A stretch of DNA of 64,000 nt from Allocoleopsis franciscana PCC 7113 (GCF_000317515.1 NC_019738.1:3188001-3252000), one strand, 5' to 3'. Positions 44,457 through 64,000 are shown, numbered from the stretch's first letter. The notes: generated by a model not told the origin, from the letters alone. A program made the numbers and translations.

Positions 44457-46109
44457 ATGGTTGATTCCTTAACGAAAGAAAGTTCTATCACAGATTGCAC
44501 TCCTAATCTTGATCAAAACTGCATTCTGGCAGCGATCGACATTGGGACAAATTCGATTCACATGGTGGTTGTGGAGATTGAGCCAACGCTACCGTCATTT
44601 ACGATTATCGCCAGAGAGAAAGAGACAGTACGCTTAGGCGATCGCCATCCCAAAACAGGGGAGTTGACACCAGAAGCCATGGAACGATCGCTCGGTGCTT
44701 TGCAACGTTGCCAAGACTTGGCAAAAAGCTGCAATGCCGAACAAATTGTTGCTGTTGCCACGAGTGCTGTGCGTGAGGCACCGAACGGACGAGCCTTTTT
44801 AAAGCAAATCCAATCAGACTTAGGGTTATTTGTCAACCTCATTTCAGGTCCCGAAGAAGCCCGACGGATTTATTTGGGTGTTCTGTCGGGGATGGAATTC
44901 AACAACCAGCCCCATGCCATTATTGATATTGGTGGTGGTTCGACGGAATTGATTTTGGGGGATAGTCATGAACCCCGTTACCTGAGCAGTACGAAAATAG
45001 GGGCGGTTCGTCTCACGGCTGAGTTTATCACCACTGACCCCATCAGTCTGGGCGAGTTTCAATACTTGCAAGCTTATATCCGGGGGATGTTAGAGCGACC
45101 GGTTGAAGAGTTACTGTCTCATCGGCAACCGGGCGAAGAGCTTCGTTTGGTGGGAACCTCTGGCACGATTGAAACCCTGGCAACCCTGCACGCGAGAGAA
45201 AAGCTGGGAACGGTGCCAAATACCCTCAACGGCTACCAAATGAGTCGCAAAGACCTCAAAGAAATGGTCAAGCGCTTAGCCTCAATGAGTTGCGCGGAAC
45301 GGGGAGCCATCTCAGGGATGTCAGATCGACGCTCAGAAATTATTGTGGCAGGGGCAATAATTTTAGTGGAAGCGATGACAATGCTGGGGGTTGAGTGCTT
45401 GATGATTGGTGAACGGGCACTCCGAGAAGGGATGATTGTTGACTGGATGCTCAGCCACGGATTGATTGAAGACCGACTGCGCTATCAAGGTTCAGTACGC
45501 GAACGGAGCGTTTTGAAAATTGCTCAAAAATATCAGGTGAATTCGGAATATAGCCAGCGAGTTGCTAACTTGGTTTTGAGTTTGTTTAATCAAACCAAAG
45601 GCCATCTCCATGACTGGGATTGTGAAGAACGGGAACTGCTGTGGGCGGCAGCGATTTTGCACAACTGTGGATTATATGTGAATCATTCGGCTCACCATAA
45701 GCACTCTTATTATCTAATTCGCCACGCTGAACTTTTGGGTTTTCTGGAAACCGAAATTGAAATCATTGCCAATCTAGCGCGTTATCATCGACGGAGTACA
45801 CCCAAGAAAAAGCACGAAAATTATAGCAATTTATCCAGTAAAAAGCATCGGCAACTCGTGTGTCAGCTCAGTGCGTTGTTACGTTTAGCGGTGGCTCTTG
45901 ACCGCCGACAAATTGGCGCGATCGCACGAGTGCAGTGTGAGTATCGTCCGCATGAAAAAGAACTTCATCTGCGTCTATTTCCTGCTCAACCCGAAGATGA
46001 TTGCGCGTTGGAACTGTGGAGTTTGAATTACAAAAAAGGCGTTTTTGAAGAGGAATTTGGTGTTAAGTTAGTGGCAACTTTGGAATCGGCACCAGTGACA
46101 GTCAGTTAA
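44457..46109 (+). CDS. ppx: Exopolyphosphatase / pppGpp phosphatase (Ppx/GppA)
   Basis: 550 residues. It removes terminal phosphates from polyphosphate or pppGpp. ASKHA-fold motifs: [17 protein letters not shown] (P-loop 1, about 23-40), [12 protein letters not shown] (about 101), [13 protein letters not shown] (about 160) and [12 protein letters not shown] (about 238). The C-terminal HD-like domain (about 345-510) contains [18 protein letters not shown] with several His. Plain Ppx is ~500 aa; this length includes the HD-like domain as in E. coli Ppx. Its stop overlaps the stop of the first WD40 gene by 8 bp (convergent, no terminator seen). Confidence 0.93.
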
Positions 46110-49100
46110 TCTTAGATTGAGCTGTGACTCCATCGCAAAGATCGCGCTCAACTGGGTCAACTTGAGCATTCATCTTGAGATAATCCCGCACGCGATCGCA
46201 AGCATAAGCGAGTTCATCGAGTTTGAGAATTCGCTCCATATCCCACAAAATCACCGTGCGATCGTCTCCAGCAGAGGCAATTTGTTTACCATCGGGACTA
46301 AACGCCACCCCCCAAACGTTTCCCTCATGTCCGGTTAGCGTTGTTATTTCTGTTCCGTCTATCTTCCAGAGCTTGAGTACGCCAGTGGAGCCTCCAGTCA
46401 CCAGCATTTGACCGTCTGGACTGAAATCAACTGCCATCACACCTCTCGTATTTCCCTTGAGGGTTTTGAGCAACGTGCCATCGCTTGTCCAGAGTTTAAT
46501 CGTGTCATCCCTGCTGGCAGTTGCCAAGGTGCGACCGTCTGGACTGATGGCAACTTTCCAAATCGGGCTGCGATGACCTTTGAGAATCTTGGAAAACCGA
46601 CCGTCAAGACTCCACAACCGAGCAGTAGTGTCGCTACTGGCTGAAACCAGCCTCTGTCCGTCAGGGGTAAAGTCTACATCGTAAACCCTAGCTTGATGTC
46701 CTTGGAACGTTTTCAACAAAGTGCCGTCTGGCTTCCACAGTTTCACGGTTTTATCGTTGCTGGCAGAAGCAAGTAGGCGACCATCTGGACTTGCAGCGAT
46801 ATCCCAAACTCCCGCGCTATGCCCTGTTATGGTTTTCAGCAGCTTCCCGTCGAACTGCCAGAATTTCAGTGTTTTGTCTTCACTAGCCGCAGCGAGGATG
46901 GGCGCAGCATTGGCAGAACTCGCCCCTTGGAGGAAAGCAGTGCCGTAAACGGTAGCCTTGTTTCCGGCAAACGTTTTCAGCAACGTGCCATCTCGCGCCC
47001 ACAGTTTGAAGCTGCCATCTGAACTCGCTGAAACTAGTATCTTACCTTCGGGACTGAAACCCACATCCCAAATGGTTCCGCCATGTCCGTAAAGGACTTT
47101 CGAGAAAGGACTGATTGGGTTCCACAGTCGAGCGGTATTGTCATCGCTAACGGAGACAACGATTTTACTGTTAGGAATAAAGGTAACGGCTCGAATTCCC
47201 GATTGATGCCCTTTGAGGGTTTTCAACAACGTCCCATCCGGATTCCAAAGGTTGATGATTTGGTCAGCACCAGTCGAAGCAATCATATCGCCTGCTGTGC
47301 TGACAGCAATTTCAAACACTTCCGAACTGTGACTGCTAAGAGTACGTAGCAGCGTTCCATCAGGTTGCCAGAGTTTAACCGTATTGTCAGCGCTGGCAGA
47401 GACAAGGGTGGGTCGTTTTGTGCCGTTTTTGTCGGCAAGTAAGGCGAACTCAACGTCCCAAACGGTGGCGCTGTGTCCTTCCAGGGTTCTCAACAGTTCA
47501 CCATCGAGAGTCCAGACTTTGACTGTACCGTCTGCGCTGCTAGAGGCGAACAGGTTGCCATCCGGACTAAAGGCAACACCCCAAACCCCTCCTTGATGTC
47601 CTGCTAGAGTTTTGAGCAATTTGCCATCAATACTCCACAAACGAATGGTGCTGTCTTCGCTGGCGGAGGCGATACGCTTACCGTCAGGACTCACAGCAAT
47701 CGCCCATATCGCCGCATTATGTCCCTGAAAAGTTTTGAGCAGTTTGCCTTCCCGACTCCACAGATAAATGCTGCCATCCACACTGGATGTTATTAGGCGC
47801 TGGCTGTCGGGAGTAAAACGGAGGGCGTAGACGCTGCTAACTTTGTGCTCAAGAGTATACAACAAGGTACCATCTCGTTGCCAAAGCTTAGCTGTTTGGT
47901 CGCCGCCGCCGGTGGCGATGAGTTGTCCATCTGGGCTAGCATCAACGGCCAGAACCGGGCTGGAATGCCCCGACAGGCGATTGAATTCGGCTGTTCCATA
48001 GATGGCTTGTTGCAGCACTTGTTGCACTTGAGATTGCAACTGGGGGCTGGAATTAGGGAGACTGTCGAGCCTGCGTCTTGCTTTGATGGCAGTTACGAGA
48101 GCATCTAATCGCTGTTGAGAAGCAAATTGCCCTGTGGAGGAGGTGGTGAGGGCTTGAATTTCGCTGATACGGGCTTGCTGCTCACTCGTGAGGGCGCGAT
48201 GATATTGCCAGAGGGCGAGAAGGCTAGATGCGATCGCAACGATTAATAACCCACTCAACGCCCCAATAAACCTTCGCTGTCGCTTTGCTGTTTTTCGCTC
48301 TAACACTAACCGCTTGTGTTCTTCTGCCAGTCGGGCTTCTACTTCCTTAGCTCGTTCTGCCTCCAATGCCAGTTGTACTTCCAGCCTGTCTAATTCTTGA
48401 GAAGCGGCTAAAAATTGATAATCCAAATTGCTTAAACTTTTGCCCTGTGCCCAAGTTTGAGCATCTTTGAGGGCTTGTCCCCTGAGAAGACGTGAAGCAT
48501 CCTGTTGTTTTGAAGCAATCCAAGCATCGAAAGCTTGAGAGTAAGGGCGCACAGACGCTAATTGTTCTTTTACCCATTCCCAATCGAATACCTTCTGATA
48601 AATGGGGTTTTTCACCTTGAGGAAACCTTGCTGTTTCTCCACCAAACCCGACAGCAGCAGTTCCATTTGCTCTGGCGAGTCATCGCTGCCAATTTCCCCT
48701 CGTTGTAAGATTTGTTGATAGATGCCGAGTAATCGAGCCGCACGTTGAGAGTTGCTCAAAATGCGATCGCGTATTGTCCTCAAATGCTCCGGCTCATCTT
48801 GAGATTCCCAGTTGTCAATGATGCGCCGGACTACCAACTGTTCCACCCAACGTGCCTCATCCCCAGCAAGAATTACGCTGACGCGATTGGTTGCCATCAA
48901 GGTAAGCTGGCACAACTTTTGTGTTAAAAACGGTTGTCCCCCTGTCCAGCGCAAAATTTCAGCTAACAAGGCATCTGGCTGACTGGCAATCTTCTTTAAT
49001 CCCGGCATCAGGGGGATGGCTTCGTCTAACGAAAATCCCTTGAGTTCTATTGCCCGTCCGATATTAAACGGTGTACGATTTTTGTCGGCAATTAAATCTG

Positions 49101-49668
49101 GCGGTGTTGCTACTCCCAACAGGGCAAACGTCAGCCGTTTGTAGCTTGACTTTTGAGCGCGTTTGTTGTATATAGCCCTAATTAGGGCAAAGAAATCGTC
49201 CGTCGGGAAGTCTAAACTGAGTAGACTATCAATTTCATCGATAAAAATTACGACATTTTGCTGAATTTCAACGAGCAAGACGGTTTCGAGAAATTCACTC
49301 AGGCGATTGACTAAGGATAAGTGGGTGCGATCGCGCCACCAAGCTCGTAAATTAAAGTCAAGCTGGAAACTGCTGCCCAGAGAACCGACAACAGAGGCAT
49401 ACCATTGTTCTGGCGTCACCTCTTGAGTACCAATGGCTGTGATATCAATGACTCCGCAGCGAATACCTTCCGCTTGCAAACGGTGCATCGTCTGTACCCA
49501 AAGCGATGATTTACCCATTTGCCGGGAGTTGAGGACATAGCAAAACTCACCTCTAAGTAGCGCCTCATACAACTGATCATCAGCTTGACGCCTGACATAA
49601 CTAGGCGCATCAAGCGGTAAACTCCCGCCAACTTGATATTCATAGGATGGGCTTTGGGCAGTGAGCAT
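46102..49668 (-). CDS. AAA_35 ATPase-WD40 membrane protein (paralogue 1)
   Basis: 1,188 residues. Residues 1-330 form an AAA_35-type ATPase: QMGKSSL Walker A at 50-56, [10 protein letters not shown] Walker B at 138-147, sensor-like [11 protein letters not shown], and a winged-helix tail (about 250-370). A coiled coil (about 410-465) precedes one transmembrane helix (about 470-490). Fourteen WD40 blades (about 560-1150) could build two seven-bladed propellers; each has a GH...WD-like end (e.g. [15 protein letters not shown]). A ~35-residue conserved tail follows ([12 protein letters not shown]). No signal peptide, so the propeller may lie in the periplasm or cytoplasm depending on orientation. 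A STAND-like scaffold or sensor is likely; no catalytic effector is fused. Confidence 0.9.
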
Positions 49669-49700
49669 GATGGGAGAAAGGGGAAACGGAACGTTTTTAA

Positions 49701-52700
49701 CTACTGTGCAGCGTTGTGAGTTTTGACTCCATCACACAGGTGGCGATCGCTTTCCTCCACATCTGCATTCGTTTGCAAATAATCCCGCACCCAATCACAT
49801 CCATACTGGAGGAAATTGAGCTGGAAAATTCGCTCTAAATTCCACAAAATTGCGGTTCTATCCTGACTTGCTGAGGCGATTAACGTCCCATCAGGGCTAA
49901 ACGCAACTCCGAACACCCCATCGCTATGCCCCTTTAAGGTTTCAAGCTCTTTACCGTCGTAGCTCCAAAGTTTGACTGTGCCGTCGAAACTGGCTGAAGC
50001 GATCATCTTGCCATCAGGACTAAATGCTACTGCGAACACCCCATTTTTGTGTCCCTTCAAGGTTCTGATTTCTGTACCGTCGCGCCGCCAAAGTCTCACC
50101 ATGTTATCCATACCTGCTGAAGCTAGCGTCTTGCCATCAGGCGTCAATGCCACTCCAGCCACCTGACGGCGATGACTTTTTAACGTGGAAAGAAGCCTGT
50201 AGCTGGGCTTTCCAGATGCGATGGCATTATCCCACTGCCAAAGTTTGACTGTGCCGTCCACGCTAGCTGAAGCAATGAGCTTGCCGTCAGGGCTAAAGAT
50301 AACTCCGTTAACGTGATCGGTATGCCCTTGGAGAGTTGCCAATTGGGTGCCGTCAATCTTCCAGACTTTGACGGTTCTGTCCTCACCCGCCGAGGCGAGT
50401 GACTGTCCATCTGGATGGAAATCAACGGCGAAGACTCTACCTTGATGTCCAGTAAACGTGTGGAGTAAGGTTCCATCCAGCCGCCACAACCGAACAGTGC
50501 TGTCATACCCGCCTGTAGCAATGGTGTCTCCCTTTGGGCTGAAATCTACTCCGAAAAGTTTATCGGCTTGTTTGGGGAACGTGCGAATTAAGCTACCATC
50601 CAGCCGCCAAAGTTTAACGGTATTGTCACGACTAGCAGTGGCAATGGTCTTACCATCAGGACTAAATTTTACGGTGTAAATTGATGCTTGATGTCCGTTG
50701 AGAGTCTGGAGCAAACTATCATCAAGTTTCCAGAGTGCGATCGGGCCATCCCAACTAGATGAGGCGAGAATTTGCCCGTCAGGACTCCAAGTCACTCCAG
50801 AGACAACATCCTTGGCGACTAGCAGGGTTTTTACCAGAGTCCCGTCAAGCTGCCAAAGTTTAACTGTTCTGTCTAGACTTGCCGAGGCAAGCAAATGACC
50901 TTGAGGGTTAAAAGCGATTTTGCCTACTGCATCGCTGTGTCCAGTTAGGGTTTGGACTAACGTGCCGTCAAGGTGCCAAAGTTTGACTGTTTTATCCCAA
51001 CTCGCCGAGGCGATGAGATTTCCTTGAGGGCTGAAGGCAACATTTTTAACTCTATCCGTATGTCCCGTCAGGGTTCTTATCAGTTGACCGTCTGTACTCC
51101 AGAGTTTAATGGTTTTATCTTTAGAAGCAGATGCAATAATTTGACTGTCCGGGCTAAAGGCAACGCTGTCAACTTCATCTGTATGTCCGGTAAGAGTGAA
51201 GAGCAGTTTGCCGTCTGTACTCCAGAGTTTAATGGTTTTATCTTTAGAAGCAGATGCAATAATTTGATTGTTGGGAGCGATCGCTACTTGTGTAACCTCT
51301 TTGGTATGTCCTTTTAAGGTGTGCCACAAGGTATAACTCGGCTTTGGGTTTAGTGATTGTGTACTCTTTTTGCGCCAAAGTTTAACGGTGTTATCCCCAG
51401 AACCCGAAGCAATTAGATCCCCTCTGGGGCTAAATCCAACTCCCCAAACCGCCTTGTCGTGCCCTTTAAGCGTTCCCAACTTTGTACCGTCTTTTTTCCA
51501 AAGATCGATGGTTTTGTCGGCAGACGCTGAGGCAATGAGTTCGCCATCAGGACTGAACGTTACATCATTAACTACATTGTTATGCCCGGATAACTGGTTA
51601 TATTCAACCGCTCCATAAACAGCCTGATGCAGAGACTCCTTAACTGAGTTCTGGATATCTGCGTCTGCAACACCTAACTTTTGCAATCGTCGCTGTGCTG
51701 TGATGGCTTGTACTAGTGCGTCTAACTTTTGATTGGAGGCGAATAGAGCTTCGGAAGATTTGGCGATCGCTTTTATCTCGCTTACAGCAGTTTGCCGATA
51801 CTGAACATAAACCCCTAGCCCCAATGCACAGGCTAGAATTAATGTCATACTTTCCACAACAAGCAAAAACCGTTGCCGCCTGGAACTTTTTTTCTCTAGT
51901 GCTAATCTTTTTTGTTCCTCTGTTAGTCTGGCTTCAACTTCTTTAGCCCGTTCTGCTTCCAATGCTAGCTGCACTTCTGTTCTGTCTAATTCTTCAGAAG
52001 CCGCTAAAAACTGATAATCCAAATCGCTCAAACTTTTTCCCCGCGCCCAGACTTGAGCATCTTTGAGAGCTTGTCCCCGTAATAGCCGCGATTCATCAGT
52101 TTGTTTAGTAGCAATCCAAGCATTGATGGCTTGAGAGTAGGGACGTAGAGAAGCTAATTGTTCTTCTAGCCATGAACAATCGAATACCTTCTGATAAATG
52201 GGGTTTTTCACCTTCAGGAAACCCTGCTGTTTCTCCACCAAACCCGACAGCAGCAGTTCCATTTGCTCTCGTGAGTCATCGGTGGGAATTTCCCCCCGTT
52301 GTAAGATTTGTTGATAAATGCCGAGTAATCTAGCAGCGCGTTGCTCACTTCTTAAAATGCGATCGCGTATTGTCCTCAAATGCTCTGGTTCATCTTGAGA
52401 TTCCCAGTTCTCAATGATGCGCTCTTGCACTAACTGCTCAATGAATTTTCGATTTGGGATGCCCTCTTTTTTAAGGGCGGATTTTAGATTGGGAATGTCC
52501 CCCTTCTCCCCCGCCTCAACCACTAACCGACACAACTTTTGTGTCAGAAACGGCTGTCCCCCTGTCCAGCGCAAAATTTCAGCTAACAAGGCTTCTGGCT
52601 GACTGGTAATATCCTTTAATCCACCCATTAGGGGCATGGCTTCATGTAACGAAAATCCCTTGAGTTCTATTGCCCGTCCAATGTTAAATGGTGTGCGATT

Positions 52701-53288
52701 TTTGTCGGCAATTAAATCTGACGGTGTTGCTACTCCTAACAGGGCAAAGGTGACGCGTTTATAGCTTGACTTTTGAGCGCGTTTGTTATAGCAGACTCGG
52801 ATGAACGCAAAAAAATCGTCCGTTGGAAAGTCTAAGCTGATTAAACTGTCAATTTCATCAATAAAAATTACGACATTTTGCTGAATTTCCTCCAGTAAGA
52901 TGGTTTCGATAAACTCACTGAAGCGATTAACAAGGGATAAGTGGGTGCGATCGCGCCACCAAGCTCGTAAATTAAAATTAAGCTGGAAACTGCTGGCTAA
53001 AGAACCGATAACCGAGGCATACCACTGTTCTGGCGTTATCTCTTGAGTACCAATCGCTGTTAAATCAATCGCGCCACAGCAAACGCCGACAGCCTGCAAA
53101 CGGTGCATCGCCTGCACCCACAGAGAAGACTTGCCCATCTGCCGCGAGTTGAGGACGTAGCAAAACTCACTTCTTAAAAGTGCCTGGTATAGCTCTTCAT
53201 CAGCTTGACGCCTGACATAACTTGGGGCATCAAGCGGTAGACTCCCGCCGACTTGATATTCATAGAATGGACTTTGGGCGGTGAGCAT
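49701..53288 (-). CDS. AAA_35 ATPase-WD40 membrane protein (paralogue 2)
   Basis: 1,195 residues with the same order as its neighbours: AAA_35 domain (Walker A QMGKSSL at about 50; Walker [16 protein letters not shown]), winged-helix region ([19 protein letters not shown]), coiled coil, a transmembrane helix of different sequence ([15 protein letters not shown]), and 14 WD40 blades. The blades differ most from paralogues 1 and 3: inserts occur in blades 2 and 11 instead of 5 and 9, and blades 3 and 4 are nearly identical to each other ([18 protein letters not shown]), showing a recent internal duplication. The gap to paralogue 1 is 32 bp, to paralogue 3 89 bp. Confidence 0.9.
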
Positions 53289-53377
53289 GATGAGACAAAA
53301 GGTAAAAGATAAAAGTCACGCCTTAAAAACTTAAAGGTTGGTTGTAAATGCGCTCCCTACCTCGCTGAGGTTAAATT

Positions 53378-56300
53378 TCATTTCTTTGATTGTGTCGCCC
53401 TGTGAGTTTTAACTTTATCGCACAGATGCCTGTCCTCCTCCTTGACTTCAGCATTTGTTCGCAGATAATCCCGAACGCGATCGCAAGCATAAGCGAGTTC
53501 ATCGAGTTTGAGAATTCGCTGCACATCCCACAAAATAATGGTGCGATCGTCCCCAACAGAGGCAATCTGTTTCCCATCGGGACTAAACGCCACCCCCCAA
53601 ACGTTTCCTTCATGTCCAGTTAGCGCGGTTATTTCTGTACCGTCAATTTTCCAGAGTTTGACTGCGCCAGATGCGCCTCCCGCCACCAGCATTTGACCGT
53701 CTAGACTGAAATCAACTGCCATCATGCCTCTAGTATTTCCCTTGATGGTTTTGATCAACGCGCCATCGCTTGTCCAAAGTTTAATCGTGTCATCCATGCT
53801 GGCAGTTGCCAAAGTGCGACCGTCTGGACTGACAGCCACTTCCCAAACCCCACTGCCATGACCTTTCAAAGTCTTGGAAAAGCGACCGTCCAAACTCCAC
53901 AACCGAGCTGTACCATCTGCACTGACGGAAACCAGCCTCTTTCCGTCGGGGGTAAAGTCCACATCGTAAACCCTAGCCTGATGACCTGCGAACGTTCTCA
54001 AGCTCGTGCCGTCTTTGTTCCACAGTTTCACAGTACTGTCGTCACTTGCAGAAGCGAGTAGCTGACCGTCTGGACTGGCGGAGATATCCCAAACGTTCGC
54101 CCCATGTCCTGTTATAGTTTTCAGCAGCGTCCCGTCAAACTGCCAGAGTTTAATGGTTTTATCTGTACCTGCGGAAGCGAGTACAGGCGAGATATCTTCT
54201 TTGGCAAAGTTCGTAGGGGAGACGAAAGCAACGGAGTAAACGGGAGCCTTGTATCCCGCAAAAGACTTCAGCAACGTACCGTCTTGTGCCCACAGTTTGA
54301 AGCTGCCATCCGAACTGGCTGAAGCGATCATCTGACCTTTGGGGGAGAAGTCCACATCCCAAACGACACCGCTATGTCCGTGTAGGACTTTCGAGAAAGG
54401 GTTTGTCGGGTTCCAGAGCCGGACGGTACTGTCGTCGCTGACTGAGACAGCGATTTGAGTGTTGGGAATAAAGGTAAGGCCGCGAATTCCAGATTGATGC
54501 CCTTTGAGGATTTTCAAAAGCGTCCCGTCCGGCTTCCAGAGGTTGATGGTTCCGTCGGCGCTGGCGGAAGCAATGACATTGCCTGAATCGCTGACGGCAA
54601 TTTCCAACACTTCTGAACTGTGACCCCTGAGAGTAGAGAGCAGCGTTCCGTCGAGTTGCCAGATTTTAACTGTGTTGTCAGCGCTGGCAGAGAGCATAGC
54701 GAGACGTTTTGTGCCGTCACTATCTGCAAGGAAGGCGAACTTAACGTCCCAAACAGCACCCGCGTGTCCTTTCAGAGTTCTCACCAGTTTGCCGTCTTTT
54801 GTCCAGACCTTGACCGTACCGTCTGTACTGCCAGAGGCGAGCAGGTTTCCATTCGGACTGAAAGCAAGACCCCAAACCCCACCTTGATGTCCCCTTAGTG
54901 TCTCGATCAGTTTGCCATCAAAGTCCCACAGGCGAATCGTGCTGTCTTCGCTGCTGGTGGCAATGCGATTGCCGCCGGGACTGACGGCTATGTCCCATAT
55001 CGCAGCGCTGTGTGCCTGAAAGGTTTTGAGCAGCTTGCCGTCCCGACTCCACAGATAAATGTTGCCGTCCATGCTGGATGTGACTAGGCGCTGGCTGTCG
55101 GGACTGAATTTAAGCCCGAAGACAGCAGCTGGGTGTTGCAGGTTGTGGAGCAGCGCACCGTCGCGTTGCCACAGCTTGACTGTTCGGTCACTGCCTCCGG
55201 TGGCGATGAGTTGGGCGTCTGGGCTGACATCAAGGCCCAGAACCATGCTGGCATGTCCCGATAGGCGATTGAATTCTGCGGTTCCGTAGATGGCTTGTTG
55301 CAGCGCTTGCCGAACTTGAGATTGCAACTGAGAGCTGGAATTAGGGAGGCTGTCGAGCCTGCGTCTGGCTTTGATGGCAGTTACGAGGGCGTCTAATCGC
55401 TGTTGGGAGGCGAATTGCCCTGTGGAGGAGGAAGTGAGGGCTTGAATTTCGCTCTGGGCGGCGCGGTGATATTGCCAGAGGGCGAAAATGGCGGATGCGA
55501 TCGCAACCATTAATACCCCACTCAATGCCCCAATAAACCTTCGCTGTCGCTTTGCTGTCTCTCGCTCAAAGACTAGCCGCTTGCGCTCCTCTGCAAGTCT
55601 TGCTTCCACCTCTCTTAGCCTCGCTGCTTCCAGCGTTTGCTGCACTTCCAGCCTGTCTAATTCTTGAGAAGCGGCTAAAAATTGATAGTCCAAATCGCTT
55701 AAACTTTTTCCCTGCGCCCACTCCAGGGCATCTTTTAGGGCTTGTCCCCTCAGAAGGCGCGAAGCATCCTGCCTTTGGGAAGCTATCCAAGCATCCAAGG
55801 CTTGAGAGTAGGGACGCAGGGACGCTAATTGTTCTTCTAGCCATGAATAATCGAATACCTTCTGATAAATGAGGTTTTTCACCTTCAGGAAACCCTGCTG
55901 TTTCTCCACCAAACCCGACAGCAGCAGTTCCATTTGCTCTGGCGAGTCATCGGTGGGAATTTCCCCTCGTTGCAAGATTTGTTGATAGATGCCGAGTAAT
56001 CGAGCCGCACGTTGGGAGTTGCTCAAAATGCGATCGCGTATTGTCCTCAAATGCTCTGGTTCATCTTGAGTTTCCCAATTATTGATGATGCGCTCTTGCA
56101 CCAACTGCTCAATGAATTTTCGATTTTGTCCCTCCCTTGATAAGGGGGGGGTGGGGGGGTATGATTTGGGATTGGGAATGTTTCCCTCTCTTCCCGCCTC
56201 AACTACTAACCGACACAACTTTTGAGTTAAAAACGGTTGTCCCCCCGTCCAGTGCAAAATCTCAGTTAATAAGACTTCGGGTTGGCTGGCAATCTCCTTT

Positions 56301-56971
56301 AATCCACCCAGGAGGGGCATGGCTTCGTGTAACTCAAATCCTTTGAGTTCTATTGCCCGTCCGATATTAAACGGTGTACGATTTTTGTCTGCCATCAAAT
56401 CTGGCGGTGTTGCTACTCCCAACAAGGCAAACGTCAGCCGTTTGTATGTTGACTTTTGAGCGCGTTTGTTATAGCAAGCTCTAATCAGCGCAAAAAAATC
56501 GTCCATCGGGAAGTCTAAGCTGAGTAGACTATCGATTTCATCAATAAAAATTACGACATTTTGCTGAATTTCTAGGAGTAAGATGGTTTCGATAAATTCA
56601 CTTAGGCGGCTGACTAGGGATAAGTGAGTGCGATCGCGCCACCAAGCTCGTAAATTAAATTGGAGTTGGAAGCTATTGGTGAGAGAACCAATCACTGAGG
56701 CATACCATTGTTCTGGCGTCACCTCTTGAGTGCCAATGGCTGTGATATCAATGACTCCGCAGCGAATACCTTCCGCTTGCAAACGGTGCATCGTCTGTAC
56801 CCAAAGCGATGATTTACCCATTTGCCGGGAGTTGAGGACGTAACAAAATTCACCCCTAAGTAATGCCTCGTACAACTGATCATCAGCTTGACGCCTGACA
56901 TAACTAGGCGCATCAAGCGGTAAACTCCCACCAACTTGATACTCATAAGATGGACTTTGAGCGGTGAGCAT
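53378..56971 (-). CDS. AAA_35 ATPase-WD40 membrane protein (paralogue 3)
   Basis: 1,197 residues. The first 93 residues are identical to paralogue 1 by eye. The middle segment after the ATPase (LCRLVVEAG... [13 protein letters not shown]) is like paralogue 2, not 1. The membrane helix and the 14 WD40 blades, including the extended blades 5 and 9, are again like paralogue 1. A 13-residue proline-rich insert ([13 protein letters not shown], about residues 272-284) is encoded by a dispersed repeat (56125-56168) within the reading frame. It is the first gene of the tandem set in transcription order. Same inferred role as paralogue 1. Confidence 0.9.
56125..56168 (-). repeat. G/C-rich dispersed repeat inserted in frame in paralogue 3
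   Basis: CCCTCCCTTGATAAGGGGG followed by a G-rich run. It is translated as [10 protein letters not shown] on the minus strand, the well-known peptide face of a cyanobacterial intergenic palindrome. Paralogue 1 lacks it; paralogue 2 has a different short palindrome (GCCCTCTTTTTTAAGGGC) at the equivalent site. Confidence 0.75.
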
Positions 56972-57181
56972 GATGACGCAAAAGGTAAAAAGTAAAAGTC
57001 AAATCTTACACTGGCGATTGGAAATGACAGTCAATTCAATCTAACATCAGGGTTATTTCTAGTTATTCAAAATAAGAAATTTTTTACATAGTGTAAGATC
57101 GGTTTAGTCGCTACAACTAGAAGCGGATAAGCTTTGGGTATTCTGTCACTACTTCACGCCTACACCAACTGAGGAAAAACA

Positions 57182-57784
57182 ATGACGACGCTGCTAATTC
57201 AAACGATGAGTGTCCCACTGACGGTCAATCTTCCTGCTATCAAATCGATGAGTGTTGAACAATTTTACGAATTCTGTCTAGCCAATCGCGATTTGAGAAT
57301 TGAGCGTACTGCCAGTGGGGAAGTTATCATTATGCCGCCAGCTTTTTCAGATACAGGTAATCGAAACCTTAAAATTGCTCAGCAACTTGCGAACTGGGCA
57401 GAACAAGATGGCACAGGCGAAACGTTTGACTCCAGTGCAGGCTTTACTCTGCCGAATGGGGCAACTCGCTCCCCTGATGCCTCGTGGATTAAACTAGAGC
57501 GATGGAATGCTTTAACTGAAGAACAAAAAGCCTCATTTGCTCCGATTTGTCCAGACTTTGTGATTGAATTACGGTCTTCTAGCGATACTCTTAGTGGATT
57601 GCAAAAGAAGATGCAGGAATATATTGACAACGGTGCATCACTGGGATTGTTGATTGACCGCAAGAACCGAAAAGTTTATCTCTACCGTCCCAATCAAGAA
57701 CCGGAAATCTTGGATAATCCCGAAACAGTGAGTGGCGATCCAGAGTTACCAGGATTAGTCTTGCGGATGGCAAAAATCTGGTGA
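57182..57784 (+). CDS. Uma2-family (DUF820) putative endonuclease
   Basis: 200 residues. Uma2 pattern: MSVEQFYEFCLANRDLRIER, EVIIMPPAFSDTGNRN, SPDASWI (acidic metal site), CPDFVIELRSSSDTL (the D...ExK-type PD-(D/E)XK core), then MQEYIDNGASLGLLIDRKNR and VYLYRP. These proteins are very abundant in cyanobacteria, predicted nucleases of unknown target. It is on the opposite strand between WD40 paralogue 3 and the AAA_35-cyclase gene; the ATG follows GAGGAAAAACA. It may be a mobile or accessory insertion in the cluster. Confidence 0.9.
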   Translation: MTTLLIQTMSVPLTVNLPAIKSMSVEQFYEFCLANRDLRIERTASGEVIIMPPAFSDTGNRNLKIAQQLANWAEQDGTGETFDSSAGFTLPNGATRSPDASWIKLERWNALTEEQKASFAPICPDFVIELRSSSDTLSGLQKKMQEYIDNGASLGLLIDRKNRKVYLYRPNQEPEILDNPETVSGDPELPGLVLRMAKIW

Positions 57785-57835
57785 TTGATATCATTTTTAT
57801 AGAGTTAAAAGCTTAAAGAGTAATTGCCCATTCCA

Positions 57836-57880
57836 TCACAACAGATGTCTGTCCTCTTCCTTCACGTCGGCATTTGTCCG
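57836..57880 (-). pseudogene. Tail remnant of a fourth WD40 paralogue
   Basis: The minus strand reads [13 protein letters not shown] then a frameshift stop, matching the C-terminus of paralogue 3 ([16 protein letters not shown]). At DNA level 34 of 40 bases match by eye (57841-57880). One inserted T after CATCTGT breaks the frame. It begins 4 bp after the stop codon of the AAA_35-cyclase gene. Confidence 0.75.
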
Positions 57881-57884
57881 CGTT

Positions 57885-59726
57885 TTAGAACGTCAGTTGA
57901 TAAAGTGGCATCGGTTCTTCAATTCCCTCGAATTGCTCTTGTTTTATTTCAATGGGTAGTAAGGGAAGATAACTTTTGACGGCATCATAAACAACCTGAG
58001 AAATACAAATATCACCCGGAGCAATTTCAGCTTGTAGACGAGTAGCAATATTCACTCCAGGCCCAGTAACATCGATGCAATTGAAAATAACATCTCCTAG
58101 ATGAATGCCAATTCGATAAGTGAGGATGGGTTCAGTGGTACCTTCAGCAATTTTCCTGAAGGCTAGTTGAATTTCTTGGGCGCAGTTGACAGCATTAATG
58201 GTACTGGGAAAATAAATTAATAACCCATCTCCAGTAGATTTAAGAATTTGGCCTTCATATTGTTGACCTAACTGAGTTATGAACTGAAAGTTTTGGTAGA
58301 GTAAATTCTGCGTTTCTTCTGGGTCAGTACCCATCATTTCCGCCAATTCTACCACATTGATGGAAACAATCGTGGCGAGGCGATGTTCTTGGAGTAAATT
58401 TAACTGCAATTGGCTGAGGTGTTCGCTAAAATATCGACGGTACAAATCCCAACTAGGTACAACCTGCCCATTGACAAACCGCACCAGTCCCATACTGTGC
58501 AATTTAAACCCCTGTATGGGATCTAATTTCACAGGAGTGGGTGACATCACAACCCGTGTCAATGCGGTTACGAGATCGGGATACTGTTGAACATTCCACA
58601 ATTGTCGTCGCAAATAGTCTCTATAAATGCCATTTTCAGAGGTGGCGGTTGCTAATAACTGTTCTAGGGTGATGTCTTTGCCGCTAATGTGATACAGCGC
58701 TATATGCACCAGATAAGGATTTCCTCCAATCAACTCCATTAGGCGTTCTACTTCCTCAGTTTTCCAATCGAGTTGATGCCGAGTTGCTAAATCTTGGACT
58801 TGCAGTGGAGTAAACTCTGGCAAATCAATGGATAACCCTACATTAAAGGGGGATTGATTAACGTTAAGGGGGATATAAACTTCTGTGGAATGAACGATGA
58901 TTAACCGTAACTTTTGCCAAATCATGCTACTTTGCTCTGGATATTTAGCTTTCTGATACCAAGTTCGGAGCAATCCAAAAAAATCGGTAGCAATTTTGGG
59001 GTAATTGAACACTACATCCACTTCATCTAATGCCAAAACGACCGGACGATCAATTTCGGCTAACAAATAATTCTCGAAATAATCGGTGCAGTTGTAATTA
59101 CTGCCAAATACCTCATCCCAATACTCGTTTAATCGATTGGGGAGTTCCAAACGCCGAGTGACAACGGCACAAAACCACCGCAAAAATTGGCTTAAAGTCG
59201 TGAAAAGATCGGCATCAGCCAGTTGCAAGCTTAACGTTACTGTTTTAAAATCTTGTGTAATTGCCTCATCGAGAATCCTGACCATCAAAGAAGTTTTGCC
59301 CATTTGCTTAGGCGCTTTAATCCGAATCAAAGCTCCCGGTTGTAAGATGGCTTCATCGCAAAGTTGCTCAATGGGAGGACGCTCTATATAAAAAGGAGAA
59401 TTGAGAGGAACGTAACCTTTGACCATGATACTGGAGCGACTCTCACTCTCATTGGAATCAGGTTGAGTATAATCATCAACATTCAGCGTCAGATTAAACG
59501 TGCTGAAGTAGGACTCCAAGCTTTGTCGATCTACAGCAGCTTGGCGGCGTTGTACCTTAGCAATGGTATTGGGACTCATTTGTGTCCGTTCACCGATTTG
59601 TTCTAAAGTGTAGGGAACGCCATTGTTGTCTTCCATTTCCGACTGGCGCTGTGCCCTCTGTAAGCGCTGCCAACCTCGATACGTGAGAATGACACCTCGC
59701 TTACGCTTGGGGAGTTGACTTTTCAT
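57885..59726 (-). CDS. AAA_35 protein with degenerate class III cyclase domain
   Basis: 613 residues from the ATG at 59726 (TTG at 59759 disfavoured). Residues 1-90: basic start (KSQLPKRKRG) and a helix-turn-helix-like module (YTLEQIGERTQMSPNTIAKV). Residues 105-420: AAA_35 domain with Walker A QMGKTSL near 140 and VVLALDEVD as Walker B. Residues 440-605: class III nucleotidyl cyclase homology domain. The substrate Lys and second metal Asp are kept (LKSTGDGLLIYF), as are Asn/Arg of GPGVNIATRL. However, the first metal Asp is Asn457 (IVSINVVELAE), so catalysis is doubtful; it may bind nucleotides only. Same strand as the WD40 paralogues and part of the same AAA_35 cluster. Confidence 0.85.
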   Translation of the reverse strand: MKSQLPKRKRGVILTYRGWQRLQRAQRQSEMEDNNGVPYTLEQIGERTQMSPNTIAKVQRRQAAVDRQSLESYFSTFNLTLNVDDYTQPDSNESESRSSIMVKGYVPLNSPFYIERPPIEQLCDEAILQPGALIRIKAPKQMGKTSLMVRILDEAITQDFKTVTLSLQLADADLFTTLSQFLRWFCAVVTRRLELPNRLNEYWDEVFGSNYNCTDYFENYLLAEIDRPVVLALDEVDVVFNYPKIATDFFGLLRTWYQKAKYPEQSSMIWQKLRLIIVHSTEVYIPLNVNQSPFNVGLSIDLPEFTPLQVQDLATRHQLDWKTEEVERLMELIGGNPYLVHIALYHISGKDITLEQLLATATSENGIYRDYLRRQLWNVQQYPDLVTALTRVVMSPTPVKLDPIQGFKLHSMGLVRFVNGQVVPSWDLYRRYFSEHLSQLQLNLLQEHRLATIVSINVVELAEMMGTDPEETQNLLYQNFQFITQLGQQYEGQILKSTGDGLLIYFPSTINAVNCAQEIQLAFRKIAEGTTEPILTYRIGIHLGDVIFNCIDVTGPGVNIATRLQAEIAPGDICISQVVYDAVKSYLPLLPIEIKQEQFEGIEEPMPLYQLTF

Positions 59727-59891
59727 CGTAAATTGCTCAGCCTGCTTAAAATCAAACAAATCTTTCTTAGTTGATTTATTGTCCCACCCATTAGAGGGTA
59801 GAGTAATCTTGATTCAGGAAGCCGACAAAAATACCTCCGCCATTTTTGCCGTGTTTTCCAGCCCAAAGTGCGCTGTTATTTGGGGACTAGC

Positions 59892-60028: not shown

Positions 60029-62968
60029 ATGGTATTAGCGGAATTTTTTATTCCTCACGGGCATTGCTATCTTTGGAAATCTGAGCTGGTCAGCTTACAC
60101 ATTGTGTCAGATGCCTTGACAGCGGTGGCTTATTACTCAATCCCGTTGACCCTCAGCTATTTCGTACTCAAGAGACAAGATGTACCTTTCAACTGGATTT
60201 TCCTGCTGTTTGGTGCGTTCATCGTTTCTTGTGGCACAACCCACATTATGGAAATTTGGACACTGTGGCATCCGGACTATTGGCTATCGGGGTGGATCAA
60301 AGCCTTTGCGGCTGTCGTCTCATTATATACAGCGTTTGAACTCGTTTCCTTACTTCCCCAAGCCCTGGCAATGCCCAGCGCTGCTCAATTTGAAGCGGTG
60401 AAAAGCGAAATTAAAGAACGCCTGCGAGCCGAAGCCGAACTTCAGCAGGCAATTGTCAAACTGAAGCAAGAAATGGCTGAGCGTCAGCAGGCAGAGAAGG
60501 CACTGCGAGAGAGTGAAGAACGCTTACAGCTAGCTTTAGAAGGTAGTGCTTTGGGGTGGTGGGATTGGAATATCACCACGGGGCAAACCTATTTTGACTC
60601 CTCTTGGAAGAGAATGCTGGGGTACGAGGTAGAGGAGATTGACAATAATTACGAATCCTGGAAGCAGCTAATGCATCCCCAGGATAAGCCGAGGGTAATG
60701 GAGGTTTTACATGCCTATCTTCGAGAGACACTTCCGCTTTACGAAGTAGAATTTCGGATGCGCTCCAAGTCTGGGCAGTGGAAGTGGATTCTGATTCACG
60801 GTAAGGTTTTCGAGCGCGATGAATCAGGTGCGCCTGTGCGAATGCTCGGTACCCAAAAAGATATCAGCGATCGCAAATTGGCACAGGAACGACTCAGGCA
60901 TAGTGAAGCTAACCTGGCAACAGCCCAAAAAATTGCCCATATCGGCAACTGGGAATTTGATGTAGTCAGTGGGGAAATTACCTGGTCAGAAGAGAAATTT
61001 CGCATTCTGGGTCTTGACCCAACCCAACCCGAACCCCAGTACGCCGAACTGCTCGAAAAGATTCATCCCGATGACCGAAAGTTATTTCAACAAGCGACCT
61101 CACAAGCGCTGGCATTCGGGACAGGCTACGAACTTGACTATCGAGTTGTGCGCCCTGATGGTCAAGTCCGGTACATCGAGGGAAGAGGAGAAGCGGTTGT
61201 TAATGAGCAAGGGCAGGTGATTCGACTGTTTGGAACCGCCTTGGATATCACCGATCGCAAACGGGTAGAAGAAGCCTTGCAGGAGAGCGTACAGCGAGAA
61301 CGAGCGATCGCCAGAGCGATTCAAAGAATGCGCCAAACATTAGATATTGAAGCGATTTTTAGTGCCACAACCGAGGAATTGCGGCAGTTAATGAACTGCG
61401 ATCGCGTTTTGATCTATCGTTTCAATCCTGATTGGAGTGGAGAGATTGTCTCCGAGTCTGTGGGGAGTGAGTGGATTTCGCTGTTGCAGGAGCAAGTTCA
61501 TCACCCCCATCTGGCACAGAAGACTCTAGAAGATGATCGCTGTGCTGTGAAAAAATTCGATAGTGCCGCAGGACGCGAAAGCGTTCTTAGTCATGCTTGC
61601 CCAGTGCAGGATACTTATCTTCAAGAAACCCAAGGTGGTGCATACAGTCAAGGTGCAAGTTATGCCGTAGTCCAAGACATTTACCAAGCCGGGTTTCACG
61701 ATTGTTACATCAACCTGTTAGAGCAATTTCAAGCTAGAGCCTATATCATTGTCCCTATTTTCTGTGGCTCTAAACTTTGGGGATTGCTGGCAACTTATCA
61801 AAACTCTGGCTCCCGCCAATGGAAAACAACAGAAACCAATGTGGTAGTCGAGATTGGCAATCAGTTGGGGGTCGCCTTGCAGCAAGCTGAATTATTAGCG
61901 AAGGTGCAAAAGCAGTCAGAAGCTCTACAACAATCAACCCAGCGAGAGCGAGACAAAGCCACTCAACTTAAATTGACTTTAGAGGAATTGAGACACACCC
62001 AATCTCAATTAATTCAAACTGAAAAAATGTCAAGTTTGGGGCAAATGGTGGCGGGAGTTGCCCACGAAATTAACAATCCTGTCTGCTTTATCTTAGGTAA
62101 TCTTGCTCCTGCTAAAGAATACTTTCAAGATGCGCTAAGACTGATTCAACTTTACCAGGAAACGTACCCGAATCCTACACCAGCTATTCAAGAATTGGCG
62201 TATGAGATCGACTTACAATTTCTCAGAGAAGATTGGTCAAAACTGATGCATTCTATGCAAGTGGGGGCTGAACGGATTGAAGCCATTGTGCGATCGCTCA
62301 AGACGTTCTCTAGATTGAATGAATCAGAATTAAAACCTGTAGATATCCATGAAGGCATTGACAATACTTTACTGATTTTGCAATCTCGACTGAGGGCAGA
62401 AGGCGATCGCCCCGAAATTAAGGTGATTAAAGACTACGGTTCCCTGCCCAAAGTCACTTGTTATGCCAGTCAGTTGAATCAGGTGTTCATGAATCTGATA
62501 GATAATGCAATTGACGCTCTAGAAAACCAACCTTCGCCACGAGTAATTACCATCCACACTTCCTTGATGGGTGGGGATTCAGGCACAAGAAAAGGGGGTA
62601 ATTTAACCCATCCTTTACGCAAAAATTCCCCCAATTCCCAAGCTTTAAGTTCTAATAATCAATGGGTGATGATTCGGATTACTGACAATGGTTCTGGGAT
62701 GCACAAAGAAGTGCAGCAAAAAATATTTGACCCATTTTTTACAACGAAGTCTGTAGGAAAGGGGACGGGATTAGGATTATCAATCAGCCATCAAATTATC
62801 GTAGAAAAACACCAGGGTCAACTCAAATGCCTTTCTGTTCCAGGAAAAGGGACAGAGTTGATTGTAGAGATTCCTGTCAGCGGTCAAACGGGTACCACTC
62901 ACAATCGATTCCCCCTTCAAGAATCTAATTATAAAGACCGTTATTGTCTCACCGTTTTTGAAGATTGA
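60029..62968 (+). CDS. Ethylene-receptor-like histidine kinase with PAS and CBCR-like GAF
   Basis: 979 residues. The N-terminal three-helix domain (about 20-115) matches the ethylene-binding domain of plant ETR1 and Synechocystis Slr1212: Asp28 in SDALTAVAYYSIP, and Cys68 and His72 in SCGTTH equal the copper-binding Cys65/His69 of ETR1. A coiled coil (115-165), two PAS domains (about 165-285 and 290-415), and a GAF domain (about 425-620) follow. The GAF has the phytochrome/cyanobacteriochrome pattern DIYQAGFHDCYINLLEQFQ with Cys559 at the chromophore position, followed by Tyr where most have His. The kinase core has AHEINNP (H box), NLIDNAIDAL, DNGSGM and GTGLGLSIS. There is no receiver. It probably senses ethylene and possibly light. 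A tandem 13-bp repeat lies upstream. Confidence 0.92.
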   Translation: MVLAEFFIPHGHCYLWKSELVSLHIVSDALTAVAYYSIPLTLSYFVLKRQDVPFNWIFLLFGAFIVSCGTTHIMEIWTLWHPDYWLSGWIKAFAAVVSLYTAFELVSLLPQALAMPSAAQFEAVKSEIKERLRAEAELQQAIVKLKQEMAERQQAEKALRESEERLQLALEGSALGWWDWNITTGQTYFDSSWKRMLGYEVEEIDNNYESWKQLMHPQDKPRVMEVLHAYLRETLPLYEVEFRMRSKSGQWKWILIHGKVFERDESGAPVRMLGTQKDISDRKLAQERLRHSEANLATAQKIAHIGNWEFDVVSGEITWSEEKFRILGLDPTQPEPQYAELLEKIHPDDRKLFQQATSQALAFGTGYELDYRVVRPDGQVRYIEGRGEAVVNEQGQVIRLFGTALDITDRKRVEEALQESVQRERAIARAIQRMRQTLDIEAIFSATTEELRQLMNCDRVLIYRFNPDWSGEIVSESVGSEWISLLQEQVHHPHLAQKTLEDDRCAVKKFDSAAGRESVLSHACPVQDTYLQETQGGAYSQGASYAVVQDIYQAGFHDCYINLLEQFQARAYIIVPIFCGSKLWGLLATYQNSGSRQWKTTETNVVVEIGNQLGVALQQAELLAKVQKQSEALQQSTQRERDKATQLKLTLEELRHTQSQLIQTEKMSSLGQMVAGVAHEINNPVCFILGNLAPAKEYFQDALRLIQLYQETYPNPTPAIQELAYEIDLQFLREDWSKLMHSMQVGAERIEAIVRSLKTFSRLNESELKPVDIHEGIDNTLLILQSRLRAEGDRPEIKVIKDYGSLPKVTCYASQLNQVFMNLIDNAIDALENQPSPRVITIHTSLMGGDSGTRKGGNLTHPLRKNSPNSQALSSNNQWVMIRITDNGSGMHKEVQQKIFDPFFTTKSVGKGTGLGLSISHQIIVEKHQGQLKCLSVPGKGTELIVEIPVSGQTGTTHNRFPLQESNYKDRYCLTVFED

Positions 62969-63021: not shown

Positions 63022-64000
63022 TTAGTTTACCTTTCTTCCTGTGAGCCAATAAGTCATCATTTTTCCCTTGCCTTTGATTATAATAGAACCCCGTTCCTCT
63101 AACTCAAACTGGTCTTTCAAGCGCTGATAAGTCTGATCAGTCACTTGAATTTTTCCTGGAATTCCAGACGATTCCATCCGGGATGCCACATTCACAGCAT
63201 CGCCCCATAAGTCATAAATAAACTTGTTGATCCCAATCACTCCAGCCACCACAGGACCGGTATTAATACCAATACGGATTTGGAAGGATTCACCTTGCTC
63301 GATTTGGAAACGATCAATAGCTTGTTGCATATCCAACGCCATGTGTGCGATCGCCTCAGCATGATAATCGCTGGGTACCGGTAAACCCCCCACTACCATG
63401 TAGGCATCTCCTATAGTTTTAATTTTTTCTACCTTATATTTCTGAGCAATATGGTCAAATTTAGAAAAAATCTGATTGAGTAAATTCACCAGTTCAATGG
63501 GTGGCAGACGAGTGGAAAGAGGAGTAAAACCAACAATATCAGCAAATAGAATAGTGACATCCTCAAAACTCTCCGCAATCGGTGCCGCACCACTCTGCTT
63601 TTCTAACGTCGGTTGCTCTTGTTTCAAGCGATTAGCAATTAGTTTGGGTAGAATATTGAGTAATAAACGCTCAGATTTGTCTTGTTCTAAACGTAATGCC
63701 TCTTCTGCCTGTTTGCGATCGGTGATGTCACGCGCAACCCATAAAATTGAGGTTTCTGCAATAGGCGAAATACCAGCAGAAAACCAAACTTCTTTTTCTC
63801 CTAAGAATAAGCTGTAATCAAAATTGATCGTCTGTTGAGTATCTAAAGCTAACCGGATTCTTTTCAACCACTCTTCTGCTCTCTCATCTGAAAAAAATTG
63901 TTCAATCGTTTGACCGATTGCGTCAACACCGGGTTCGTATAACCGATCGGGATTTGTGGGTGCAATTTCTATATTTCCGATTTCATTTTCTTGAATATCG
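63022..64000 (-). CDS. PAS-containing adenylate cyclase (partial, runs off right edge)
   Basis: At least 325 residues. The frame stays open from the TTG at 63867 to the end of the window, so the true start is outside. The upstream part (IEIAPTNPDRLYEPGV, then IGQTIEQFFSDERAEEWL) belongs to a PAS domain ending DITDRK. A signalling helix (LEQDKSERLLLNILPKLIAN) leads to a complete class III cyclase domain. It has both metal Asps (LFADIVGFT and KTIGDAYM), the adenine-specifying Lys (KIKTIGDAY) and Asp (LWGDAVNVASRM), and the transition-state Asn and Arg. It is therefore predicted to make cAMP. A CRP-type site is present at 29701 in this window. Confidence 0.92.
   Translation of the reverse strand, partial: DIQENEIGNIEIAPTNPDRLYEPGVDAIGQTIEQFFSDERAEEWLKRIRLALDTQQTINFDYSLFLGEKEVWFSAGISPIAETSILWVARDITDRKQAEEALRLEQDKSERLLLNILPKLIANRLKQEQPTLEKQSGAAPIAESFEDVTILFADIVGFTPLSTRLPPIELVNLLNQIFSKFDHIAQKYKVEKIKTIGDAYMVVGGLPVPSDYHAEAIAHMALDMQQAIDRFQIEQGESFQIRIGINTGPVVAGVIGINKFIYDLWGDAVNVASRMESSGIPGKIQVTDQTYQRLKDQFELEERGSIIIKGKGKMMTYWLTGRKVN

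Follow-up and report, generated by a model that had tools for sequence, protein, structure and literature searches.

The nearest published idea to the gene pair described here is the nSTAND2 two-gene operon (Kaur et al. 2021, PMC8195603, Fig. 6C). The part of that paper devoted to it presents a mobile operon in which both proteins are nucleoside triphosphatases (NTPases) of the STAND type (signal transduction ATPases with numerous domains), one of them carrying variable effectors, and in which a hetero-multimer is proposed. It places nSTAND2 near CR-ATPases and DAP3; in its account, the NTP-binding motifs of the effector partner are eroded and the effectors are GT4 or HEPN. We analysed a 64-kb stretch of the 8-Mb genome of Allocoleopsis franciscana PCC 7113 (C1:3188001-3252000; hereafter the window), in which four open reading frames (ORFs) on the minus strand, all of them open, encode proteins with an AAA_35 domain (PF14516). 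They belong to two subfamilies, type A and type B, and lie in the transcription order A, B3, B2, B1. Judged from sequence, the A-B pair seems to be a widespread and apparently undescribed cyanobacterial gene pair, of which the window holds one copy. We consider it reasonably likely that the pair acts as a STAND ATPase switch made of two proteins: the chain of effector, ATPase and sensor known from classical NLR-type immune receptors would be split over two genes, with an AAA_35 domain kept in each. No description of PF14516 or AAA_35 pairs was found in the literature searched, a body of text that leaves out most subscription journals.

The pair shares with nSTAND2 the two-gene arrangement and the variable effectors. 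Unlike nSTAND2, both proteins here are AAA_35 proteins, all 107 A proteins have retained Walker A and only about 20% of them have lost Walker B, the effector role falls to TIR, CHAT, trypsin, kinase, cyclase or helix-turn-helix (HTH) modules, and the partner bears the sensor. Pfam assigns AAA_35 to the proteins and no nSTAND2 match appeared, the presence of an nSTAND2 model in Pfam being unconfirmed. Classical STAND proteins and nucleotide-binding leucine-rich-repeat receptors (NLRs; Avs, NACHT, NB-ARC with WD40; PMC10907252) likewise combine effector, STAND ATPase and repeat sensor, but in a single chain, whereas here effector and sensor sit on separate chains that both contain an ATPase, with the sensor predicted to be extracytoplasmic. 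In plants, sensor-helper NLR pairs (PMC9528088, PMC9975940) also comprise linked sensor and helper ATPases with several sensors per helper possible; they are, however, cytoplasmic and built from unrelated domains, and serve as an analogy only. The ternary MoxR-vWA and EAD-coupled conflict systems (PMC7159879, PMC8195603) have overlapping effectors and are enriched in multicellular bacteria, but no MoxR, vWA or VMAP gene was seen in the pair, in which coupling would run through AAA_35.

The window genome contains 25 AAA_35 matches, eight of them strong (about 450-510 bits) and most of the others at about 90-110 bits. The strong matches are type A, consisting of an output and a C-terminal AAA_35 domain, while the weaker ones are type B, usually with an N-terminal AAA_35 domain plus another domain. 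In 76 A proteins, a median of 111 residues precedes AAA_35 and 4.5 follow it, compared to 12 before and 778 after in 65 B proteins. A joint tree, which takes in a Chloroflexota plasmid pair, separates A and B into two clades with a support of 0.986 and none of 121 sequences misplaced. The GK of the P-loop is kept in all 107 A and in 103 of 104 B proteins, and no window copy has lost a Walker motif. Across the set, 105 of 106 B proteins retain both Asp and Glu of Walker B, but only 86 (Asp) and 84 (Glu) of 107 A proteins do; since the motif is thus kept in nearly all B and lost in around one fifth of A, B is the stricter ATPase. A GxP motif follows the ATPase core, as GG[HNQ]P in A and GGQP in B, with its Pro kept in 106 of 107 A and 105 of 106 B proteins. 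The window proteins hence combine several STAND-type features, namely the P-loop GK[ST], a hydrophobic-D[DE] Walker B, the GxP motif and, for A, a STAND-type fold with winged helix as judged by a match to 2qen.

This fold match comes from a search of the PDB with an AlphaFold2 (AF2) model of the whole A protein, whose listed matches are mostly cyclases and barely cover AAA_35 neighbours beyond 2qen. The ATPase part of A aligns to this archaeal Walker-type ATPase (PABY2304) with a Z score of 21.0 over 309 residues, a root-mean-square deviation (rmsd) of 4.3 and 12% identity, and we take 2qen to be a STAND ATPase of the MNS clade. A further likeness to this clade concerns one of its families, Npun2340/2341, named after two adjacently numbered Nostoc genes. 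PMC8195603 names it, citing Leipe et al. 2004, in a passage that describes no pairing logic; this family may be AAA_35, which we regard as a lead only. An earlier sequence-only reading of the window had seen STAND-like ATPases with repeat sensors in several diverging copies, and motifs, fold and the array comparison given below all agree with it.

The number of AAA_35 matches per genome ranged from 0 to 19 in our genome survey, with matches mainly in larger cyanobacterial genomes. Elsewhere in the window genome, two short AAA_35 fragments (L035:6258-6776 and L032:18059-18865) are possibly remnants of B and A genes. In a B protein of 2093 amino acids (L058:6057-12338), one full AAA_35 domain is followed by five additional segments that match the end of the B model (its C-terminal part, positions ~201-354) at steps of roughly 220 amino acids, and then by WD40 repeats.

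The linkage of the two types was evaluated in 15 genomes, comprising 14 near-complete genomes and the window's own nine-contig assembly. A B gene lies inside 10 kb of 36 of the 50 A genes and inside 5 kb of 33, while 0.57 A genes with a B gene inside 6 kb are expected by chance (maximum 5 in 2000 random placements). In a second set of 76 A genes, which consists largely of sequences retrieved for their resemblance to the window A and is thus a less clean test than the 15 genomes, 61 have a B gene inside 8 kb; for 56 it is located downstream on the same strand, at less than 200 bp in 38 of these and overlapping in 11. In Microseira wollei, for example, the genes are 57 bp apart. One frame (L133:1584-5444) even joins an unidentified N-terminus, a B-type AAA_35 domain, CHAT and approximately the first 198 positions of an A-type AAA_35 domain. 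ATPase distances of 30 cognate A-B pairs are correlated (Spearman 0.67), and none of 2000 shuffles of partners within genomes reached this value (mean 0.43, standard deviation 0.075).

It is very improbable that A-B adjacency merely reflects paralogues from tandem duplication and has no functional meaning. The genuine tandem array of the B genes and the occurrence of solitary A and B genes would fit this view. But the two clades separated anciently and, in 14 genera, are still adjacent in those 36 of 50 cases, their frames often overlap and their co-evolution is pair-specific.

In the window, the type A gene (57885..59759, minus strand, 624 amino acids, TTG start with an in-frame ATG at 59726) falls into the type A clade and encodes the predicted output subunit. 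Its product consists of an HTH-like N-terminal domain (59460..59702; helices 27-44, 52-59, 63-70 and 78-87 in the AF2 model), the AAA_35 ATPase (58422..59420; Pfam residues 114-446, Walker A KAPKQMGKTS, Walker B LALDEVD, GGNP) and a class III nucleotide-cyclase-like domain (57888..58394). The type B genes on the same strand are B3 (53378..56971, 1197 amino acids), B2 (49701..53288, 1195 amino acids) and B1 (46102..49668, 1188 amino acids). Their AAA_35 domains, each found with the Pfam profile, lie at 55835..56935 (B3), 52164..53252 (B2) and 48568..49632 (B1, residues 13-367, predicted to face the cytoplasm). Against a Pfam cut-off of 27, B1 scores 108.5 bits, B3 108.6 bits and A 494 bits; B2 exceeds the cut-off in the genome search with 101.2 bits (C1:3240512-3241246). 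Each B protein has one hydrophobic helix at residues ~468-498 (55478..55534 in B3, 51810..51866 in B2 and 48211..48267 in B1), followed by WD40 blades (53525..55282, 49836..51599 and 46240..47994, respectively) that contain no cysteine in any of the three. Pfam finds 13-14 WD40 stretches per protein, whereas a local WD40 model gives exactly 14 blades in each, which in B1 we infer to form two 7-blade propellers. For B1, the AF2 model (mean pLDDT, the predicted local distance difference test, of 86) comprises the ATPase, further helices behind it, a long coiled-coil helix, the membrane helix and propeller strands. Pfam, WD40 model and AF2 thus confirm the three adjacent ~3.6-kb genes with AAA_35, coiled coil, membrane helix and exactly 14 WD40 blades that had been recognised from the sequence alone, and the fourth same-strand AAA_35 gene with a cyclase-like domain was recognised correctly as well.

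The B genes of an array diverge in their sensors rather than in their ATPases. B1 and B2 are 83% identical in the AAA part, but only 44-47% in WD40. A locus of the same genus (L115) is flanked by the same genes and contains A and two B genes, lacks Uma2 and has 201 bp between A and B2; the simpler reading is that the window gained B3, a B1-like duplicate absent from this relative, and its Uma2 gene. At four-fold sites, B2 agrees with L115 at 60 of 114 positions in AAA compared to 240 of 310 in WD40 (p = 2e-6). Since the AAA part of B2 differs from its ortholog while WD40 agrees, we conclude that the ATPase half was exchanged with neighbours within the array by gene conversion and the sensor stayed. 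In other arrays, AAA identity reaches 0.86-0.92 at sensor values of 0.48-0.51 (L126 and one measurable pair of L124), and a histidine-kinase B and two WD40 B proteins share 75-79% in AAA (L029). Three other L124 pairs have AAA values of 0.61-0.63, and L125 is less contrasted (AAA 0.62-0.76, sensor 0.47-0.67). Positive selection on WD40 is not supported, with pairwise dN/dS (nonsynonymous to synonymous rates) of ~0.19-0.29 between orthologs. Along the WD40 blade, differences are distributed over several positions (0.36-0.46 at -30, -27, -14 and -7 from the blade Trp), too diffusely to map a binding face.

Membrane helices were called by hydropathy alone, and the residues around them point to a common topology. 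Within 16 residues of the helix, 22 B proteins of the WD40 type carry a mean of 4.9 Lys and Arg on the N-terminal side and 2.5 on the C-terminal side; in B1 there are 8 and 2. The WD40 part of 47 helix-bearing B proteins contains 0.88 Cys per 1000 residues, compared to 14.2 in AAA, and 46 of the 47 have exactly two Cys in the C-terminal tail. The ten B proteins without a helix have a mean of 6.2 Cys per 1000 residues in the WD40 part, and four of them lack the tail pair. Because of the Cys distribution and the charge around the helix, we predict the propellers to lie outside the membrane; the sequences fit periplasmic WD40 propellers closed by a disulfide in the tail.

Across genomes, both the outputs on A and the sensors on B vary. 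Outputs of A comprise GerE, HTH_26 or sigma-region-4-like HTH domains, TIR, CHAT, Trypsin_2 with TIR, CHAT with TIR, Ser/Thr kinase and cyclase; in addition, alignments inspected by eye reveal a GGDEF-like C-terminus on A in L071, L072, L081 and L086. Pfam names no N-terminal domain in the window A, and finds GerE, HTH_26 or sigma r4 at the same place in other A proteins. B proteins carry 14xWD40, 3xGAF, CHASE2, TPR, HisKA-HATPase or an N-terminal response-regulator or kinase part, with at least five WD40 blades in 35 of 65. In a Nostoc plasmid pair, a gene of the CU044_2847 family precedes an A gene with Trypsin_2 and TIR (L121:6467-9005). An N-terminal stretch (PKQV.NN...SQF.GGLI) common to two A proteins on a Nostoc plasmid (L122:527-9005) recurs in a NACHT protein encoded next to them, which is perhaps an interaction or amyloid-like motif.

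The cyclase domain of the window A is recognised by Pfam (Guanylate_cyc, E 1e-9) and has a class III fold in the AF2 model (pLDDT 86), which matches 5d0e with a Z score of 25.6 over 162 residues (rmsd 1.8). In its active site, the first metal-binding Asp is replaced by Asn, while the other metal Asp, the base-binding Lys and the catalytic Asn and Arg are kept. Because this first Asp is lost, the domain is, from its residues, probably catalytically inactive. The same-genus copy of A has also lost the catalytic Asn. Elsewhere, the cyclase domains of L028, L036 and L037 have no Asp aligned at the second metal position, and the active sites of L039, L040 and L042 look intact. Production of cAMP or cGMP by the window A was rejected on these active-site residues, and the nucleotide-signalling module suspected earlier is thus probably dead as an enzyme. 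Identity with Pycsar was rejected too, as the only match was PycC at E 1.3e-4, the active site is incomplete and no Pycsar-type effector gene was seen beside A. A second class III cyclase in the window, fused to PAS (63022-63999), has intact active-site residues and served as reference for the degenerate domain of A.

Between A and B3 lies a Uma2 family gene (57182..57784; PF05685, E 4e-43), which had been noticed before as a nuclease module of the cluster; the gene is real, but encoded on the opposite (plus) strand. We judge it a bystander and rejected it as a system component, given 88 Uma2 copies in the window genome, its absence at L115 and no copy between A and B in other loci. Over all loci, five Uma2-like ORFs were found with a weak single-sequence profile less sensitive than Pfam, of which only that of the window is situated between A and B. 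The neighbourhood is therefore conserved in relatives as far as A and B are concerned, though not with respect to Uma2.

Computed results comprise the two subfamilies, their linkage, complementary architecture and co-evolution, the divergence of sensors in arrays whose ATPases are homogenised, and the topology signatures. In the switch that we propose, type B would be the sensor half and type A the output half, both of them ATPases. B would bind a ligand and exchange its nucleotide, the AAA_35 domains of A and B would assemble jointly, and this joint assembly would switch on the output of A. One A protein in the window would serve three B proteins, each with one membrane helix and a predicted periplasmic 14-blade WD40 sensor. 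The output would most likely act via the HTH-like domain, in gene regulation, or via nucleotide binding by the pseudo-cyclase, and not by synthesis of cAMP or cGMP. More tentatively, and with the balance leaning against it, we suggest that the pair is an NLR-like STAND switch, widespread and not previously described, in which paired AAA_35 domains would connect two halves, one a membrane receptor whose double WD40 propeller is extracytoplasmic, the other a cytoplasmic effector; arrayed sensors would share one output, and gene conversion would keep the docking half, the ATPase, alike. If A and B assemble via their ATPases, bacteria would possess modular sensors and helpers comparable to the NLR pairs of plants, in which both the sensors and the executioners (TIR, CHAT, protease, kinase, transcription factor) can be swapped. 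A large class of cyanobacterial genes annotated as 'AAA-like domain' would then gain a role, most of them with a testable partner, and STAND effectors a membrane-spanning route from the periplasm.

Several points weigh against the proposed switch. Contact between A and B, their co-expression and a ligand are proposals from sequence. No B gene is found inside 10 kb of 14 of the 50 A genes, including a paralogue (L028) and a kinase form (L031), and some B genes are solitary (L034, L033). Matching A and B trees could arise from linked inheritance alone, and gene conversion could skip the sensor half simply because it is already too diverged. In the window, the opposite-strand Uma2 gene parts A from B3, so that co-transcription is not assured. 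WD40 propellers in the periplasm would be unusual, and detection of the helix relies on hydropathy only.

As to what such a pair is for, a transducer of environmental or envelope signals, in which a membrane-bound B receptor relays a periplasmic signal to a DNA- or nucleotide-binding A, has a little less than an even chance in our estimation. The sensors predicted to be periplasmic (WD40 with the tail disulfide, CHASE2), the HTH outputs of A and its GGDEF-like C-termini in the four loci named above all fit, as does the purifying selection on the sensor indicated by the dN/dS values. Yet for housekeeping signalling, the TIR, CHAT and trypsin-like outputs that close relatives carry are unusual. 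These are the very modules that suggest anti-phage defence or abortive infection, in which B would recognise a cue of the invader and A would kill or arrest the cell. We regard this as possible, but doubtful. In its favour, A partners elsewhere carry TIR, CHAT, trypsin-like, TIR with trypsin and CHAT with TIR modules, some pairs are plasmid-borne (one on a 39-kb mobilizable plasmid) and lie beside integrases, a transposase and a toxin-antitoxin pair, and the copy number is patchy, as the genome survey showed. However, the window copy has no intact killer domain, CHASE2, GAF and HisKA sensors point to other signals, and phage records contained no match to A, with a scan of viral contigs using few patterns confirming none. 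Enrichment in defence islands, suggested as a check on the locus, was not apparent either: PADLOC assigned 49 families in 103 A-B neighbours and 65 in 95 random ORFs, a comparison of rough family tallies. The conflict role proposed by the sequence-only reading therefore keeps its basis in the typical conflict effectors (TIR, CHAT, trypsin-like) of A partners across genomes, but is not supported by the PADLOC tallies or the phage records, and several B sensors are of ordinary signalling types. PADLOC matches of B1-B3 to HEAT-ARM_XIII coincide with the WD40 region and were set aside as uninformative.

Beyond the four AAA_35 genes, a divergent sensor kinase gene (60029-62968) encodes an ethylene-receptor-like N-terminus (ETR1_N), PAS, GAF and HATPase. 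At the other end of the cluster, B1 and a convergent Ppx/GppA gene share 8 bp at their 3' ends (46102-46109), a layout that is the same in L115.

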